22,793 nucleotides of DNA from Spirogloea muscicola (Eukaryota > Streptophyta > Zygnematophyceae > Spirogloeales > Spirogloeaceae), in the NCBI GenBank assembly GCA_009602725.1, contig WELB01000036.1, forward strand, positions 803,162 to 825,954, in the 5' to 3' direction. Numbering within the stretch: the stretch's first letter is position 1; each line of letters begins with the position of its first letter. A model generated the notes under the pieces. That model was given only the letters and a program-made list of their open reading frames with translations, was not told the DNA's origin and searched no databases. Shown piece after piece: positions 5,194 through 21,300 of the stretch. The translations under genes and the position numbers were made by a program.

Positions 5194-6590
5194 TTACATG
5201 ACTCCAACGAGGCAGGGGGGGAGGAGGCCCAGAAGCCGGTGGGCCGCCGTCCTGTAGACTGCGTCAGGCATGGTGAGGGCCGCGTAGATGGGGAGCGCGG
5301 AAACCCACGCCGCCGCCCCGGGGGAGGAGGCTGAGAGGAGTGGGGTGCGCCCTCGAGTGTCTTGCGGCGGAAGGAGCTCCACCACCCGGTCATAGGCCGC
5401 TTTGTCCACAAGCGCAGAGTAGCGGGCCTGGGCCCGCAGGTCGGGGGTGTGCGCGAGGTGGATGAACAGAACAACCTGCTTCGACATGTCGGGGTGGGCT
5501 GCCAGGAACCCGTCGCGGGCAGCGCGGAGAGCAGCCTGGAAGGGCAGCGAGCCGTTCTCCACCTCAGCCACCACCGGCTCCAAGGTGCGGATGCCGTGAG
5601 CTTGGAACCGCCGGCTGATGGGTGCGGCGACCTGCGCCCAGCTGCCCAGGTAGGCGGCCTCGCAGGCGCTGGCGACTGGGCGGCAGCCCAGACCGCCGCG
5701 ACTGACAGGCAGGCTAGCCTGGAGCAGCGCGGCTGGCGTGGTGAGGAAGCCGGGGTGCTGGAGGAGAGGGGCAGCGCTCGCCAGAATGCCAGAGTCAAAA
5801 GCCGCGTACGCCGCCTTCACCGCCGGGAAGGGAGGGAGGACGCAGGCCAAGTAGTGCGGACGCTGGGCAATGCACCTGGTCAGCATTTTGGTCGCCAGCT
5901 GCATGTCTTGCAGCGTGTGAAGGCGGTCCGCCGGCCGGAGGTGCTCCAGCAGTCGTGCCTGACCTGCTCCACCACAAAGGCTGGGGAGCCTATGGGGGCG
6001 CCGAGGAGGGTGAAGCCCCCAGCTGGTGTCTGGCAGCCCGAGGGCAAGCGCAGGTGGGCTGGGAGGCCCTGGGGAGACCAAGAACTGCATTTGGCTGCGC
6101 GGATGCCCAAGCCGATCGCGCCTAGCTGCACCTCGAGGGTGCCGAAGGCTGCCACGACGTCGTCTGGCGGCCCCACCAGCGTTGTGTCATCGGCATACGT
6201 GGTGGTGTGGACCCTGGGGTGAGCCGCGACCGTGGCCAGCAGCGCACGGTTGTGGGCCAGCGCGTAGTACAGCCCAGCCAGCGGATCCCCTTGGGGCGCG
6301 CCTGTGGAGGAATGGACGACCTCCACCACCCCATGCCCAGTCTGCCACAGCAAGTCGCTTGGCTGACCATAGCCCAGCCTGAAGAAGGGTAGGAGGCTGG
6401 GGAAGGCCGCCCTCGGCTCCTCTGCGATGACATCCCGGTCTGCGCTATTGTATGCACTCCGAACATCCACCGCCAAGGCCATCCAGCCGGGGTGCAGGTC
6501 CACGGGGGGGCCCATACGCCATGCACGACCACCTCGCCGCCGCTCCGCAGCCCCGCGCCGAACTGGTGGGGCGCCAGGTGTCGAAAGTGT
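5194..6590 (-). pseudogene. LINE-type reverse transcriptase remnant (frameshifted, truncated)
   Basis: The minus strand encodes a non-LTR retrotransposon reverse transcriptase spread over three frames. The first frame (about 6580 to 6505) has LAPHQFGAGLRSGGEVVVH, a typical LINE entry motif. The second (about 6510 to 5965) has MALAVDVRSAYNS, GAPQGDPLAGLYYAL and the catalytic TTYADDT box, then GFTLLGAPIGS. The third (about 5970 to 5194) has LLEHLRPADRLHTLQD, LPVSRGGLG and the C-terminal LPIYAALTMPDA region, ending at a stop. One frame change sits at a seven-G run (6504-6510), the other near 5945-5975. The endonuclease domain is missing upstream, and the usual Cys-rich tail is missing downstream. 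The block is far richer in GC than its flanks. It therefore reads as a dead, doubly truncated copy. No target-site duplication was identified. Confidence 0.85.
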
Positions 6591-6997
6591 CTTTACTCCT
6601 ATGTATTCATTCCAGCCTTTCAATGCAAGAACCGTCTTCTTTTTCTGGGAATATTGAGTCGCCGTGTGCTTGAGGGCTTTTCTGGCCACTTCGAAGCTGT
6701 TTGTTCGTTTGTCTAGGCTGGCCAATCAAATCCATCGGCCAATACTGGGAAAGCCTTTCTCTCTTTACCGCTTTTCTGCAAGGGTCAGCCAGGCAAGCTG
6801 CCCCGGCTTCAACGCTGCCGGCTCGCTTGCGCAGATCTTCGCTGCTGCTCTGGCTCTGGCCAGGGCACCCACTTTCAGGAGGCTAGCATCTCTGATCTGC
6901 GGCTGCTCAGCAGGGGTTACTGAGTGACTCGTAGCTGCTTTGTTTCTTTGTGTGCTTGTTTTTTGTAGCGCTTCCCCTAGCCCCCTTCTCGTACTCT

Positions 6998-8360: not shown

Positions 8361-8424
8361 GCCCCCCCCCCCTCCCTCCCGNTCCCTCCTCCTTCCGGCT
8401 CCCCGGCTCCTCCGCCTTGCCGCC

Positions 8425-12376: not shown

Positions 12377-15300
12377 CTACAAGGCAATGCAAAGCCTGAG
12401 TATGCGCTGAGCCCACAGGCTGGCAGGGTCAGGCAGTGCCACCATGGTGGCCTTGCCCTCGCTCCCTTGCCCGGCATTGTAAACGCGCATGATGTGGTAC
12501 CGGTCCTTCTGAGTCCTCGCAAACTCCCATTCCTTTGGCGAGATCTCAAACCATTCTTTATCGTTCGAGCTTGTCGACTTCACCTCAACGTACTGCAACG
12601 CTCCCCCGCCCTCTGGCTTCAAGATGAGGTCGAAGCAAGTCCCGCTTTCCACTTGCTCGTTCATCCACTGCACATTCTCGGGGCCATGCTTGGCGACCAG
12701 CTGCCTGTATACGAACTCCTCACCCCATCTTCCAATGGCTTTCCTTTGCTTCTCATCCATCTCATTTATAAAGCTAGGCAACCTCAGCTTCTTACTCTGC
12801 AGAAGCTGCTCAATTGCTGCAACCTTCTTGAACTGAGTTCTATGGTCAACCTCAAGCAGCAGCTCTTGACAGCCAACTTGGCATAGTTGACCTGCATGAC
12901 AGCACAGACACCTCAATCAAGCACAACATGTAACTAAGAAGCAGGTTTCATCAAGCTACCATCAGCTTGGACAGGAAATGCTAGCAGTCCCTACCTCTAA
13001 CCCTCAGGCAAGCATTTCTTACTACCTAAGCCAGCTTCAATATCTGTTGTCCAGGTCGCTGGCAACACTAGAGCATCATGCCTTCTAAGACAAGTTTAGA
13101 AAGACCAGCGATGCCTCTAACAGGAAACAGAACGTGCTATAGTAACATGGCACGACTTACTGAATCTGACGCAGAGCTTGGTGGAGGACACACCTCTGAG
13201 AGTCCCAGCAATGGCATCCTTCAATGGACCCGAGTATGATGCACACCATGCAGCATCGTGAGTGGTCAAAGCATCGACTTTCGACCTTTTCTCCACAGTA
13301 GAGTCCCAAACCAAAGATTGCCCATGAAGCTCATCTTCGACACATGCCGGAAGCTGCCTGACCTCTGCTGCTCGGCAGAGATCGGCTGCCCGCTGCCCAT
13401 TAGATGTTGGCCAACAATTAGTAGGACTGGAGTTCAGCAAAGGATCTGTGACTGGATGGCCACCCTTCACTTCTGTACTTTGCCAATTGTGCAGGCCAAG
13501 CTTTGCTGTGCTCGCTGGCAAAGTCCAAAGCAGGTCCAACAGAAGAGGTATGCCTTGGTCGAGGGATAAAAAGGTCTCCAAGTCCTCCGATGAGGACAGA
13601 GCAGAGAAGCACTGCAGATGGAGGAGCCTGAGGAAGTTGACTAGCTGCCGGCGGTCCTGGTGGTCTGGGAGAAATAGCTTGGTAAACTCCATCCATATTG
13701 CAGCATTGTCATCCTTAGAATGCTCACTTATATACAGCGCACTACCCTGCAGACAGAGCCAGGCTTAAGTATGCTCTTCTGGACAAATCATAGTAAAGAA
13801 AAATTGTATAATGACACTTGCCCAAGCGATGCACTCAGCAGGTGGGGGAGCTCACATGCAAAAGTACGCTGTGGCTAACGGGCTCCTTGGCTTGAACCAG
13901 CCCAGCAGCTGTGGGAATTGCCATTGAGATGTACAGTCCTTCGACCAAGATGCAGTGGAGGTCATCCAGCTTCGTCTGCACACCAGTACCACTCTGGCAT
14001 TCACAATAGCGGGTGGGATGATGGAATGCCATGTAGCGCTGCAGCATGGGGAGCGTCCATGCCAGGAGCTCCATAGTGACAGAGTCTCTACTCTTGCCGC
14101 CATAGGTGAGTACCTCCTTATGCACCACCTGCAAAGCTTAGTCGAGCAGTTAGCCGGCGTGAACCCTCAGTATCAGTAAATGAAAAGGTTTAGACATATC
14201 AGACTGATGTCAACAATACTGATCAGGCAATTGCATCAGCATCACAAGCAGTATAAGGGAGCCTATCAGTAGCCATACTTTGGAAAGGAGGGGCACTTGC
14301 AGTTGCTCCAAGAAAGCAAGCACTGCAGCTTCCGGCTGCTTCTTCCCAGCGCCAAAAATTTGCAGGAGCGTGACTCCAGGCAGTAAACCAAAAGTGGCTG
14401 CTATATCAGCATCATCACATGCGCATATCTCTTCAGGCTTCAGTACTCTTAGAGAAGTCCAACGACCATCTGTAGTCGGGAATATCTTGCAGTGCTCCTC
14501 AGCGAGAATGGCCCTCCTTCGTCGGAGCTCTTCTTGGCACATTGGGAGTTCTGATGCCCACTTTCCAAGCACAGACAGAACCTGCTCACAACACTGAGAT
14601 ACCATGGTCATATCTGCATCTAAGCAAGGCATCAGCAGAGTAGTGAAAGCATCTACATAGCTGATATTGACCCCTGTAGAGCAAGTTATCAATGGCAGTA
14701 AGTTTTGTAGTAAGGTTTTCACTTGTGGTAAGGCATCGTCGGGGGCCTGCAGTGAGGAGAGACACTGCAACATTGCCACACACTGCTCGAAGCTCGGGCC
14801 CTCACTGACGTGTGCTTCTGTCAAGAAAAAGGACTGGAGATCTGGATAAACATCCGCAAGTTCCACCAAGCACTCTCCTTCCTCTACTTCGTTGTCATTA
14901 CACCACTTGTCTTTCAAGACCCTCCTCAGTTTGTCTGAAAGCCCCGTAGCATCCTTCCAGAACACAGACGTACTTGGAAGCAGACGACCACACTGAAGGA
15001 GGCCACGGTCGACTAACATGCTACTTGCACTAGGCAAGAAGATGAACGGCCTTGCTTCCATGAACTCCTTGATCACCCTTCTGCAATTGTCATCGGTGAT
15101 GCTTCTTTGAAGCGTTTGGTATAGATGGCTCATCTGCTCAAGCCTGCAGAGCTCCAACAACAGCATTGAACTCAAACTTACGTGGATGTGGCGAATCTGC
15201 CATGAAGCTTCTCATTGTCTTGGAAAATTTACTGACATGTGGGCAATGATTCTTCCAATTAGGAACAGTATATAAGCAGATACACTTCAACCAGGACCTC

Positions 15301-18300
15301 CGTAACATTAACATTAAGTCGAACAATCAACTGACTATTTTGCAGCACTGACAAGAGAACACGGACCCAAGTCCAGCACTGACCTGGCCCCTTTTGATGA
15401 TCTTGACTCCAGGTTCCTTAAAGTGCTGAGAGCAGTAGGAACTGTTACCTGCTCCTGCAGTCCAAGACACGCAGCAAACTTGGTGCTTGAAATCTGTAAA
15501 TTGACAAGCACAGACAGGATCAATCACCCCCCTCTAAGTATGCCACAACATCATGGCATGTCACTTGAGATTCATGTGTCAATCTTCAACAAATCCTAGG
15601 CTCTTGAATACAGTACCTTGCAAGTAACATATGAAGCATGCGGGCCAAGGACGTGCTCTACTGCCGGGCTGCGCACCACCAAATGCACGGGCCTGCAAAG
15701 AGCTCCATCAATCGTGCAAGGCAGCCAGCACGAGTTCTGAAGGGTCTGCAGAAAGGTGGTCGGCTCTTCCGGCATCAACTTCACATTGGGGTCTCTAGCT
15801 GCCTTGTAGGCATACTTGACGTAACACTGGTCCCACAGGCAGTCAAGTGCCTCTGCCAGCCTAGCATATGAGCTGCTTGAGGCTTTGGCAAAAGCTAAGC
15901 TTTCCAAAGTCTCATCCAGCTCTCTGCTTGTCCAGTCCAAGACCCGTGCATCAGGCTGATCATAACCCTCTTGCACTTGGACGAAATCGGTCACTCCAAT
16001 GCTGATGAAGAATGCCCGCCAAGACGTAACACCTCCGAGGGGGAGTGACTGAGCCCGCCACCCGACATTCGTCGGGCTAGCAGCACCGCTGTTCGTGTCA
16101 ACAGCAGCAACACCAAGCCGTAAATACCGGTCATCAACCTCCAACCAATCGAAGCCAATAGTCGCAATCACCTCCTTGAATATAAGACGTGCATCAAGCG
16201 GATTCCGCCATGCCCTTGGAAAGTGGACAGGCTGCTGGCTGGGCCTCGCCAGACCGCCAGTGGTCACGAGTACAATGGCCTTTCCCAACTGCACGTGCAT
16301 TGTAGGTCTTGCAGGGTTCGCCTGGCTGCAGCTGAGGCAAGCTGACTCGAAGTGTCGCTTGCAGAATGCAGCCTGCTCCAACAGGCTGTCCTCGCTCTGG
16401 CTCAAGCCTTGCCCTGACGCCATGCCCGGCAGAATGTGGAGCTCTAGGATGTCGTGGTCCATGAGCTTGCGAACTCCAAGCTTCTTGAGCATGTCGGCTA
16501 CAATAGATAGATCACTCTCATGCCTCACGTGAGCAACCTCGTTTCCGCCTGCATAATGATCTGCCTGTATCAGTCCAGGACTGATGAAGATGGGACAACC
16601 ATCTGCCAAGCGACAAGCTTCCAGGAGCTGCGGATGTATAAGTCGAAGCTGCGCCAACAAAGCTGGGAACTGCTGCAGGTTCTCCAGAGCGTCGCCATCC
16701 ATATACCAAAGAGGTGCATCGCCTGAGGCAGCAAATGAATCATCTGCCAATGGGAGAAATTGGAGCTTGGTCAGCCTTGCCAATGGCGTGAGGCTCGTCG
16801 ACGAGCTTGCTTGCAGGCTGCTGTGTAGGAGAGCCATCCAGTGGGAAACCCAGTGGCGGCCTAGTGCCTGCAGGTGCACGAGTGGTGGCGGGCCGGTGCA
16901 CAGGGCCTCCATGAGCACCACGAGCGTCGCGGCGCTGAAGCTCAGGATGCCCAGACCAGCAGAGACGGCCTCGGAGACCTGGATGCGGTGGTCCAGGAAA
17001 TCGAGCCCCAGGTGCTGCTGGAGAAGCTGGGGTGTGACGACGGAGGACTGCGGCCGCCTCGGCCTGGGCCTTTGGCAAAGCAACCAGCTGGCACGGCAGC
17101 TTGAAGCTGCCACCTTCAGCTGGGAGGCGTAGTATGGTGCTAAGCTGGGAGGAGATCATCCGCGGCAGGGGCGCAAAGAACCCCAGGCCCTCGCCCTCCG
17201 CAGGCAGATATTGCAGGTACTCGCTCAGGCCTCCATAAGCACCCCTGAATCATTGAGTAATTTCTATATTTGTTAAGTGCTTCCTATTACACTCAAGATC
17301 GTAGTTGCAAAGAGCAGTGGATTTAGGCTGTTGATAGAGACGTATCTTTCACCTGACTTTTGGCAGTGCTCGAAAAGTGGTGACTGCATCCACGAACGCG
17401 TCAGCAACTTGCTGCCGCAGCCACTGGTTCCAGGGATTGTCGCGGTCCACATCCTCCCGTGAAGAAGGCAGGGCGAAGTCCGCCTGCACCACAAACTTGA
17501 GGCCATACGACCGCACTGGAAGGAAAACAAAGACCTGCTGCCTGGCGGGCGCTGCTTCCAATAGCCCATCTGGGGTTTCCCTCATAGGAAATGCCAGAGA
17601 AACTTTTGTTGACCCCCTTGATGCCTGGAGGCCATTACTAGCCCATGCAGAGTTCACAGTGATGGTGCGATGGTGCAAAAGGTAGAGAAGGTGCCTTTGG
17701 CTGTCAAACACCTGGACCAGACCGTTGCCGAGCTCTTGGCGTGCCATTGAGAGATGGCTGCCTGTCACGGTATCCGCCACGTGAATACGCCGCAAGCGAC
17801 GCAGAAACAGCAGCAAGGAGGGGTGCAGGTCTGCAAGCTTGGCCGCCAGAGCGCATGCCTTGGCGCCTCATAGGCTTGGCTTGAGCGGAAGCTTCATGTG
17901 CATCCGCCATGTCACACCTTTGGAAGGTATGCTACTCAACATATTTCCAGTGGATGATGACAGCGTGCCATAATCATCTATCCAGAATGGAAGGATGTAT
18001 CCCAGGGGTCCAATGGAAAGATCAAAGCGAACATGGAAGCCACCGGAGTGTATCTCAGGTGCATCTGTGACCTGCAACAGGGTATGATCTCGTTCAGGTC
18101 ACAGATGCACCTGAAGTCATAGCCTTTGCCAAGAGTAATCGAAACATAGTGTGCAACACATTGAGACTTTTGCTTAGGATGTTGCGATCACTGCTTACCC
18201 TGAATACAGATTTGAAGCCAATACCCTTCTGCCCAGTATAATGGTCATGCAAATCTCCAACTTTTGTGGACGTGCCCACATCGCACAGGGCTTGCAGATT

Positions 18301-21300
18301 GGCAAAGGTGAACCCACGCTCATTGTTGAGGACGGTTATTTGATCCTTGTCAAGAAGAAAGGCGACCTCCGGCACTTCTCCATCCACATAGCAGTTGTCG
18401 TCTGCATTTTGCACCTGAGCAGAGGAGATGGATGAGAGTCCCGCCAACGAGTTTCTGAACGGCAGGATCGTCAAGTTGTTGGGTACAGGGCTTACAAGCT
18501 CAAGGACAAAGTGGGTGTCGGACGAGTACAAGTCCAGCGAGAGGCGCTGCAAGGCGCGGCCCATGCGCGCATGCTGCCTCTCAAGGAGGCCATTGAGCTG
18601 CTGATCGTCGCTGTCAATGCCAAACTCCTCCTTCCGAATCCTTGAGACGAGGTGCTTTGCATCAGACTCGATGACACCACTGTCTACAGTGCACAAATCA
18701 AGCACCATGTAAGCTTCAGATGCAAGGATCCAGGAGAACCAAGATTCAGATTCAAATATTACGGGAAATCTCTAAGAATCTCAAGCGCGAGTAAGGTCAA
18801 GAAGAGCTGAGGCTTACCAGCTACAGTCGCCGGCACTAGATTGCACTTAGAGTTACAGGCCTTTCCTCCATTGCTCAGCTCATTATCCATGTGGCTGCTG
18901 TTCTGTCGATTTACATCAGCAGCTTGCTCAGGAATGCCAATCATGGCCCCATGTGACTTATCCTCTTCGGCCGGCCAGTCAGCAGCGTCAATGTCTGACC
19001 CAGACTGCTGCATAACCTGCTTGTAGTGTGCGATCCACAGCTCAATCCCGAACTCAAGGCCCAGGGCATGTAGCATGGACACGCGGGACTTCAATGCAAG
19101 CTCTGCTCTATCTGCCGCAACTGCTGCTTCTAAGAGGTGCTGGTGGGCTGTGGGAGTGATCGAGGCGAAGCCAGGCACAAGGACCTGCATCCCCAGCGTC
19201 CGACACTCCCTCGGCAGATGCCAAAGGACTCCGAGCACAAAGTTCGCTGCTCTGCGCCTCCCGTCGACCAACTCACTGCCTGGTCTCTTGTTGGGTTCCA
19301 CAAATGCAGCTGCTTGACGCGGCCGCTTGTTTGATCGTACATCGTGCTCACTGCCAACGTCAGTATTCGTTCTCCTCTTTGCCTCCTCATAGACCAGATC
19401 AGCAGAAGAGCTACTCAAGTCGACCTGCAAACGTGCCACTGCTGCATTGGCAATATCTGTTGTGTTGTCAAGTGCCACGGGGATGAAGCTTGCCAGAAGG
19501 ATGGACAAGCCACGAGCAGCATGGGCACGGAGAAGGGCCAGCGGAGAGCGGAGGGGGCCTCCGAGGTTGGCAACGGCAGACACCAGGTGCAGAGCAGCGA
19601 GCACTGCGTCCATCAGCATGCAGGCCCTCAGGAAGTCCTCCGCCGTGGATGACTTGCAGACCTTGAACACCGCCCCGTCAGCCGCGACGCAGAGGCGCGG
19701 AAGCTTTCGGCCGTGTGCCTGATGCAGGCTCCGCACCCACTTTGGCAGAGGGCCAAGCGACGGCTCAAAGACTTGCCGCCAGCAGGACCAGGCCCCCAAG
19801 TCCACCAGAGCCGGGGCCGCTTCCAAGCGTCGCAACGCCTCCCCATCCTTGACTTGTCCCAGGAAGCCCACATCCTTGCTTGTCTCAGCCATGACGGCTG
19901 TCAGGTAGACAACATGGCCTGACTGGAAGTCCTCCAATCTCAAGCTGTCTTCATCTTCCAGCTGCTTGAGCATGTCAGCGAGGCTGCCCAATCTGAGGGC
20001 ATCTGCACAGTCTGCTCCAAATTGCCTGCAGGCCTGGCGCTGCACCTCTTCAAGAACTTGCTTATTGTCAGCCAGGTTGTGGTTGAGCTCGAGCCCTTTG
20101 GCCAACAGCAGCTGCCGCAAGAATGCCAGCACGGGGCCCCTCGCTGAAACCTGGATGGGTGCTGCCTCTGCTGGCACGCCGGCTGGGCTTGTGACCAAGG
20201 ACCTGAGGGCATTGAGGGCAGCGAGACGAGGGCTGCCGCACAAGAAGGTGGAGAAGCTACGCTCTTCGAGCTTCTTGCGTTTCTCGCCTCCCTGCACTTG
20301 ACAGGCTATCTGTTGGCACGTAGCCGTCCACTCTGACAGCATGGCCAGTGCTTCATGTGGTGCACTCCAGTCCAAGGGTACTGCATGAAGGCTGCGCTCC
20401 AGCGCTTCTGCCACACACTCTTCCAGCATCATCACCCCTACACACAACGCCAGCAAACACATTCTTGTCAGCAACATGGCTATCCCAGCTTGCATGCTGC
20501 TATGAATCGAAGTCCCTCTGATGAATACCGTAAGAGCAGTGCTCGCTGCAAGCACTCTGTGTATGTAAAGTAGCAAATCAAAAAAATAGACCTGAAGCTG
20601 TTCTGGATATGGGAGCCATTGCAGCGTCATCGGCCGTCCTTTGCACCACACCCTTCATCTCCTCGGTGGTAACCATAGAAGCGGGTGCTCTGGCCTCGGC
20701 GGCATTGGGAACTGGGCCCCAGTGGCCCAGTCTCATGGACATGACCTGCTCAAGACGGTTGACGGGGGCAAGTGAGTCCACCGAACAAGTAAGATCTCAC
20801 ATTCTAACAAACACTGCATTTGCAACACAAGGACATTCATAGTATGAGCACTCATTTTGGCCGCGGCAACTGAATAAGCTTACAGCAATGTTCAGAATGC
20901 CGCGGGCAGGCATCTCCTGCAGGGCCTGTGTCAGCAGCTCCTGCCTCCTGCACGCCTTCTTCTTGAGCTTCTTATGGGAGTGCCCGAGGACGCCCAATCT
21001 CTTAAGGACCTATTTGTGCACCAAGCGCTTAGTTAGTACTCTCATGGACTCTTCTGAGGCCTGTGCTTTGCAGCTTGGATGATAGAAGGGCTCTGCTATT
21101 TCACTTGCGACACGAGGTGGCAGCCAACTTAGTCCAAATCCACGCTGATCATGTCAGACAAGTGAATGATGACGACCATAACAGGTATAGATGAAAGTGG
21201 TGCCAAAGCAGGCTACAGCGAGAGATTTTGTAGCCTTGCCAGAGATCGTGAGACTGGACTGCGCGGGCTTACTCCATGTAGCGAAGTTGTGGAGCAGCAG

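Follow-up and report, generated by a model that had tools for sequence, protein, structure and literature searches.

A perfect 20-nt inverted repeat over a 3' splice site of a NO VEIN-type gene in Spirogloea muscicola, probably left by a template switch

Introduction

The closest described counterparts of the feature reported here are RNA hairpins attributed to template-switch mutation. Monttinen and Loytynoja (2022, PMC8794818) infer that a template switch can produce a perfect stem in one event, and they do so for stems of microRNAs and rRNAs. Those hairpins and ours have in common a perfect reverse-complement copy, tens of bases from its source, which yields a stem in a single step. Unlike the hairpins described in that account, ours would have an exon start as its source and the branch-site region of an intron as its target. 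Published stems also occur in the same part of introns, so that the location is common to both. For those stems, a role in aiding splicing or in concealing cryptic sites has been proposed, and structure is depleted at canonical sites in that region, whereas here the canonical acceptor itself is covered in the predicted fold.

A second comparison is with stwintrons, in which an inner intron interrupts the donor, the branch-point element, or the acceptor (PMC8469720). In stwintrons, as in the reading proposed here, an insertion interrupts a splicing signal; what has been inserted differs, being an intron in stwintrons and a 20-nt copy in our case. Eukaryotic introns carry inverted repeats at a higher density than exons do, according to PMC13155455, and an intronic inverted repeat as such is therefore unremarkable. 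A literature search pairing template switch mutation with intron and splice site found no paper, although its wording was narrow and absence is thus unproven.

We analyzed a 22,793-nt stretch of the S. muscicola genome (the window), in which a sequence-only reading had pointed to an exact inverted repeat at the acceptor of one intron. Below, we describe the repeat, its host gene, the likely direction of copying, the site of insertion, and the predicted fold, and we weigh the explanations for its origin.

Results

A perfect inverted repeat at an acceptor

Recomputation reproduced the coordinates, arm length, perfect complementarity, and 20-nt spacer given by the sequence-only reading, as well as the make-up of the exon-side arm on the minus strand, i.e., the terminal CAG of the intron plus 17 coding bases (Table 1). 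The two arms are complementary at 20 of 20 positions and, among perfect inverted repeats with spacers of up to 300 nt, form the longest of the window; the runner-up has arms of 11 nt. In a control set of 100 first-order Markov sequences matched to the window in length, the longest perfect arms averaged 11.5 nt and never exceeded 15 nt. Six further pairs of 14 to 20 nt are present in the window, all of them imperfect (78 to 87% complementarity). With up to 3 mismatches allowed, the arm sequence matches nothing in the window beyond its own two copies, and 100 shuffles gave 0. Chance does not account for perfect arms of 20 nt; the feature is real and non-random.

Table 1. Coordinates of the hairpin, its host intron, and associated features in the window
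Feature	Position	Strand	Description
Exon-side arm	18055..18074	-	Intron-terminal CAG (18074-18072) plus the 17 first exon bases, encoding VTDAP and two bases of E; presumed source
Spacer/loop	18075..18094	-	20 nt; begins with AAC, the putative 3' half of the split branch site
Intronic arm	18095..18114	-	Exact inverted copy; presumed template-switch product
GACT	18115..18118	-	5' half of presumed ancestral branch site GACT/AAC, inferred from the joined flanks
Retention TGA	18094..18096	-	Spans the arm/spacer border, with two bases from the intronic arm and one from the spacer; would end the frame in a retained intron
Host intron	18072..18198	-	GTAAGC...TGCAG, 127 nt; shortens to 107 nt if the intronic arm is left out
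In-frame TGA	17868..17870	-	In the exon starting at the hairpin, ~200 nt downstream of the acceptor, between PLKPSL and GAKACAL
NO VEIN-type gene, approximate span	12377..20651	-	NOV_C domain at one end (12377-12916); exons on either side of the hairpin intron encode the sacsin-like ATPase domain

The host gene is of the NO VEIN type

The host intron sits between codons. An open reading frame (ORF) at 12377-12916 on the minus strand matches NOV_C in Pfam (E 2.3e-20), while the joined exons flanking the hairpin intron encode a sacsin-like ATPase domain (Pfam SACS, 8.2e-13; NCBIfam NF047352, 1.1e-20). A sacsin-like ATPase domain together with a C-terminal NOV_C on one gene, the continuity of which we infer from splice-compatible exons, identifies a NO VEIN-type protein and supports the assignment to NOV made from the sequence alone. 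The span of the gene is approximate at its upstream limit.

An in-frame TGA interrupts the exon whose start lies in the hairpin, which points either to damage in the gene or to an error in the sequence. Namely, it may be a sequencing error, the sign of a damaged allele or pseudogene, or an unrecognized splice or missed intron; the alignment on conservation around it is heavily gapped. Farther downstream, at about 16990-17244 (minus strand), the reading frame of the gene shifts and a clear intron is absent. The suspected frameshift near 17040 is not called a lesion because 18 stop-free GT-AG pairs (40 to 150 nt) could bridge it.

The exon arm is the presumed source

In seven prokaryotic DUF3883/sacsin-like relatives, the alignment runs gap-free through the exon junction between FR and VTDAPE, in support of the exon start as modeled; they are 7 of 35 records, made up of 34 plasmid records (20 listed) and 1 phage record, and all seven are plasmids. 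Sacsin chains of solved structures also align gap-free across this junction in the three alignments shown. A count by eye over 8 aligned rows, one of which is the window's own, shows partial conservation of residues within the arm: T or S in all 8, D in 4, and P in 7. The gap-free alignment with the seven relatives indicates that the exon arm is old coding sequence and that the intronic arm is the copy. We thus presume, from these comparisons, that the exon arm is ancestral, in agreement with the earlier suggestion that the coding arm is family-like (VTDAPE) and the intronic arm probably the copy. The prokaryotic homologs lack this intron, whose state before the insertion is thus a presumed one. 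Protein-guided scans of viral contigs and genome contigs gave some pattern matches, none of them confirmed as a relative, and when viral contigs were scanned for the exact arm there was no hit.

The copy may have split a branch site

The present intron contains no yUnAy motif throughout. When the intronic arm is left out, the flanks join as GACTAAC, which holds a CTAAC that looks like a canonical branch site; its A lies 21 nt ahead of the final base of the intron. This CTAAC is the sole yUnAy of the shortened (107-nt) intron. The copy therefore probably landed inside a branch site, GACT/AAC (the slash marks the insertion point), a suggestive addition to the sequence-only reading, which missed it.

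For comparison, we used 10 introns on the same strand, which were modeled manually and solely on the basis of reading frames and GT-AG ends. Introns 21272-21010 and 20883-20746 are located upstream of the last long ORF and are possibly outside this gene. A yUnAy occurs at 12 to 50 nt in 9 of the 10. CTAAC is found in two, at 21 nt in intron 14278-14129 and at 23 nt in the upstream intron 21272-21010. Since one comparison intron (15383-15144) also has no yUnAy at 12 to 50 nt, the missing motif is no proof of damage; among shuffles of the host intron, 6% contained none.

Simulated junctions created CTAAC in 0.3%, CTRAY in 1.6%, and yUnAy in 8.4% of cases. The corresponding counts for 20-nt deletions were 3, 6, and 28 of 280 across the 10 comparison introns and 2, 4, and 7 of 48 within the host intron, where 48 is the scan range; deletions of 15 to 30 nt within the host intron gave 5, 16, and 76 of 728. 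The branch-site hypothesis was formed and tested on the same sequence. Given these chance-level controls, the evidence for a split branch site is suggestive only.

The acceptor is buried in the predicted fold

The 60-nt hairpin has a predicted free energy of -41.4 kcal/mol, against a shuffle mean of -14.7 (z of -9.3), and the fold of 231 nt of the pre-mRNA gives a z of -4.3. Five pairs beyond the 20 are predicted in the loop; three of these join AAC, at the start of the spacer, with GUU near its opposite end and adjoin a bulged G. In the pre-mRNA fold, the mean unpaired probability is 0.00 for the acceptor AG and 0.00 to 0.01 for the CTG of the makeshift branch site, CTGAAC. Both are paired because they face each other in the stem. 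When the host intron is folded without the arm, the values are 0.14 for the AG and 0.26 for the joined CTAAC. The stem covering the acceptor, as originally proposed, is thus present in the predicted folds, and structure lies over a splice signal there, as it would in a regulatory splice-site hairpin.

The comparison introns change how this pairing is read. Their mean unpaired probability at the AG is 0.00 and 0.01 in two cases and below 0.15 in 8 of 10. A paired AG being common in other introns, pairing alone is neither evidence of regulation nor distinctive, and the functional interpretation once placed on it is not supported. What singles out this acceptor is the unbroken 20-bp helix, which is unusual. 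Judging from these models, the hairpin could hinder splicing, and nothing in the analysis points to a role for it.

Discussion

Origin by a single template switch

The best explanation for this locus, and one that we hold to be probable, is a single template-switch mutation that inserted a copy into a branch site, made splicing slower or leaky, and left a neutral or mildly harmful relic. During replication, the polymerase would have switched briefly to the nearby exon start as a template and inserted its reverse complement, 20 nt long, at an intronic site 20 nt upstream, most likely within GACT/AAC. An exact reverse-complement copy next to its source, as found here, is what characterizes template-switch hairpins. 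Against this origin, in-register microhomology is absent at the switch points; by eye, only AAC/GTT can be matched, with a one-base slip. Fold-back priming through AAC/GTT is possible but needs that slip, and we give it little weight.

Once transcribed, the arms would pair along all 20 bp as a perfect helix, to which the loop adds some weaker pairs. This helix would bury the CAG of the 3' splice site, pairing it with the CTG of the makeshift CTGAAC left by the insertion. The likely outcome is that this intron is spliced slowly or leakily, and the frame of a retained copy would end at a TGA at the inner end of the intronic arm (Table 1). At the foot of the stem, an alternative AG at +18 is largely paired (unpaired probability 0.17); splicing to it would drop VTDAPE and keep the frame.

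Should a branch site indeed have been split, this locus offers a clean natural case of a template switch striking a splicing signal, with source, target, and product within 60 bases. It would also make it possible to test directly what becomes of an acceptor locked in a perfect 20-bp stem, as well as how one mutation can start intron regulation or gene decay.

Alternative explanations

Rather than having been selected as a device, the hairpin probably persists as a relic that is neutral or mildly harmful. A selected hairpin would act as a conditional switch, hiding branch site and acceptor until a helicase or other protein opens the stem. Its exact symmetry, high stability, location over the acceptor, and the stop codon upon retention all fit such a device, and masking of a splice site by a hairpin has been published for tau exon 10, there at the 5' splice site (PMC9198270). 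Yet perfect pairing is equally expected of a young neutral copy, and paired AGs are common among the other modeled introns. If real, the downstream in-frame TGA suggests that constraint on the gene may be relaxed, a situation more in keeping with a relic than with a selected device. We regard a selected regulatory hairpin as quite improbable. The original argument that symmetry this exact implies recent origin or selection is retained in its first half, a recent template-switch insertion being the best reading, and not in its second, for which we find no support. A related possibility, in which we place similarly slight confidence, is that the one-step switch that split the branch site produced a self-locking acceptor: the new branch site would pair with the 3' AG, and splicing would become conditional on the opening of the hairpin. 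If so, a regulated intron can arise from one replication error. The stem might instead feed Dicer or other double-stranded RNA enzymes as a young proto-microRNA. Its perfect 20 bp and five loop pairs are in line with this idea, as is the template-switch origin inferred for microRNA loci in PMC8794818. On the other side, the window has no Rfam match at gathering thresholds (a tRNA scan of it was likewise empty). By the standard of typical plant-type precursors, the stem is also short, and we consider a proto-microRNA very improbable.

The remaining explanations place the repeat outside the normal history of the gene. An assembly or amplification artefact is unlikely, although somewhat less so than the alternatives above: the single N in the window, at position 8382, and the in-frame TGA at 17870-17868 are possible signs of draft quality. 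However, an artefact would require two switches within 60 bases, a return to the correct template, and retention of the product in the consensus, and no other perfect inverted repeat in the window (spacer of up to 300 nt) exceeds the 11 nt mentioned above. A mobile element with terminal inverted repeats, such as an introner or a MITE remnant, would fit the layout of the repeat, a unit of 60 bp located at an intron and bounded by inverted ends of 20 nt. Against this, one of the ends is coding sequence that aligns with relatives, so that the two ends do not both belong to an element; no further copies turn up in the window when up to 3 mismatches are allowed; and no target-site duplication is seen by eye in the flanks (GACT and GATA). 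Of all the explanations considered, this is the one to which we give the least credence.

Another feature of the window

An ORF at 5880-6725 (minus strand) is reverse transcriptase-like; its match to RVT_1 (E 7.7e-07) scores 29.5 bits against a cut-off of 29.6. It is probably a retroelement remnant.
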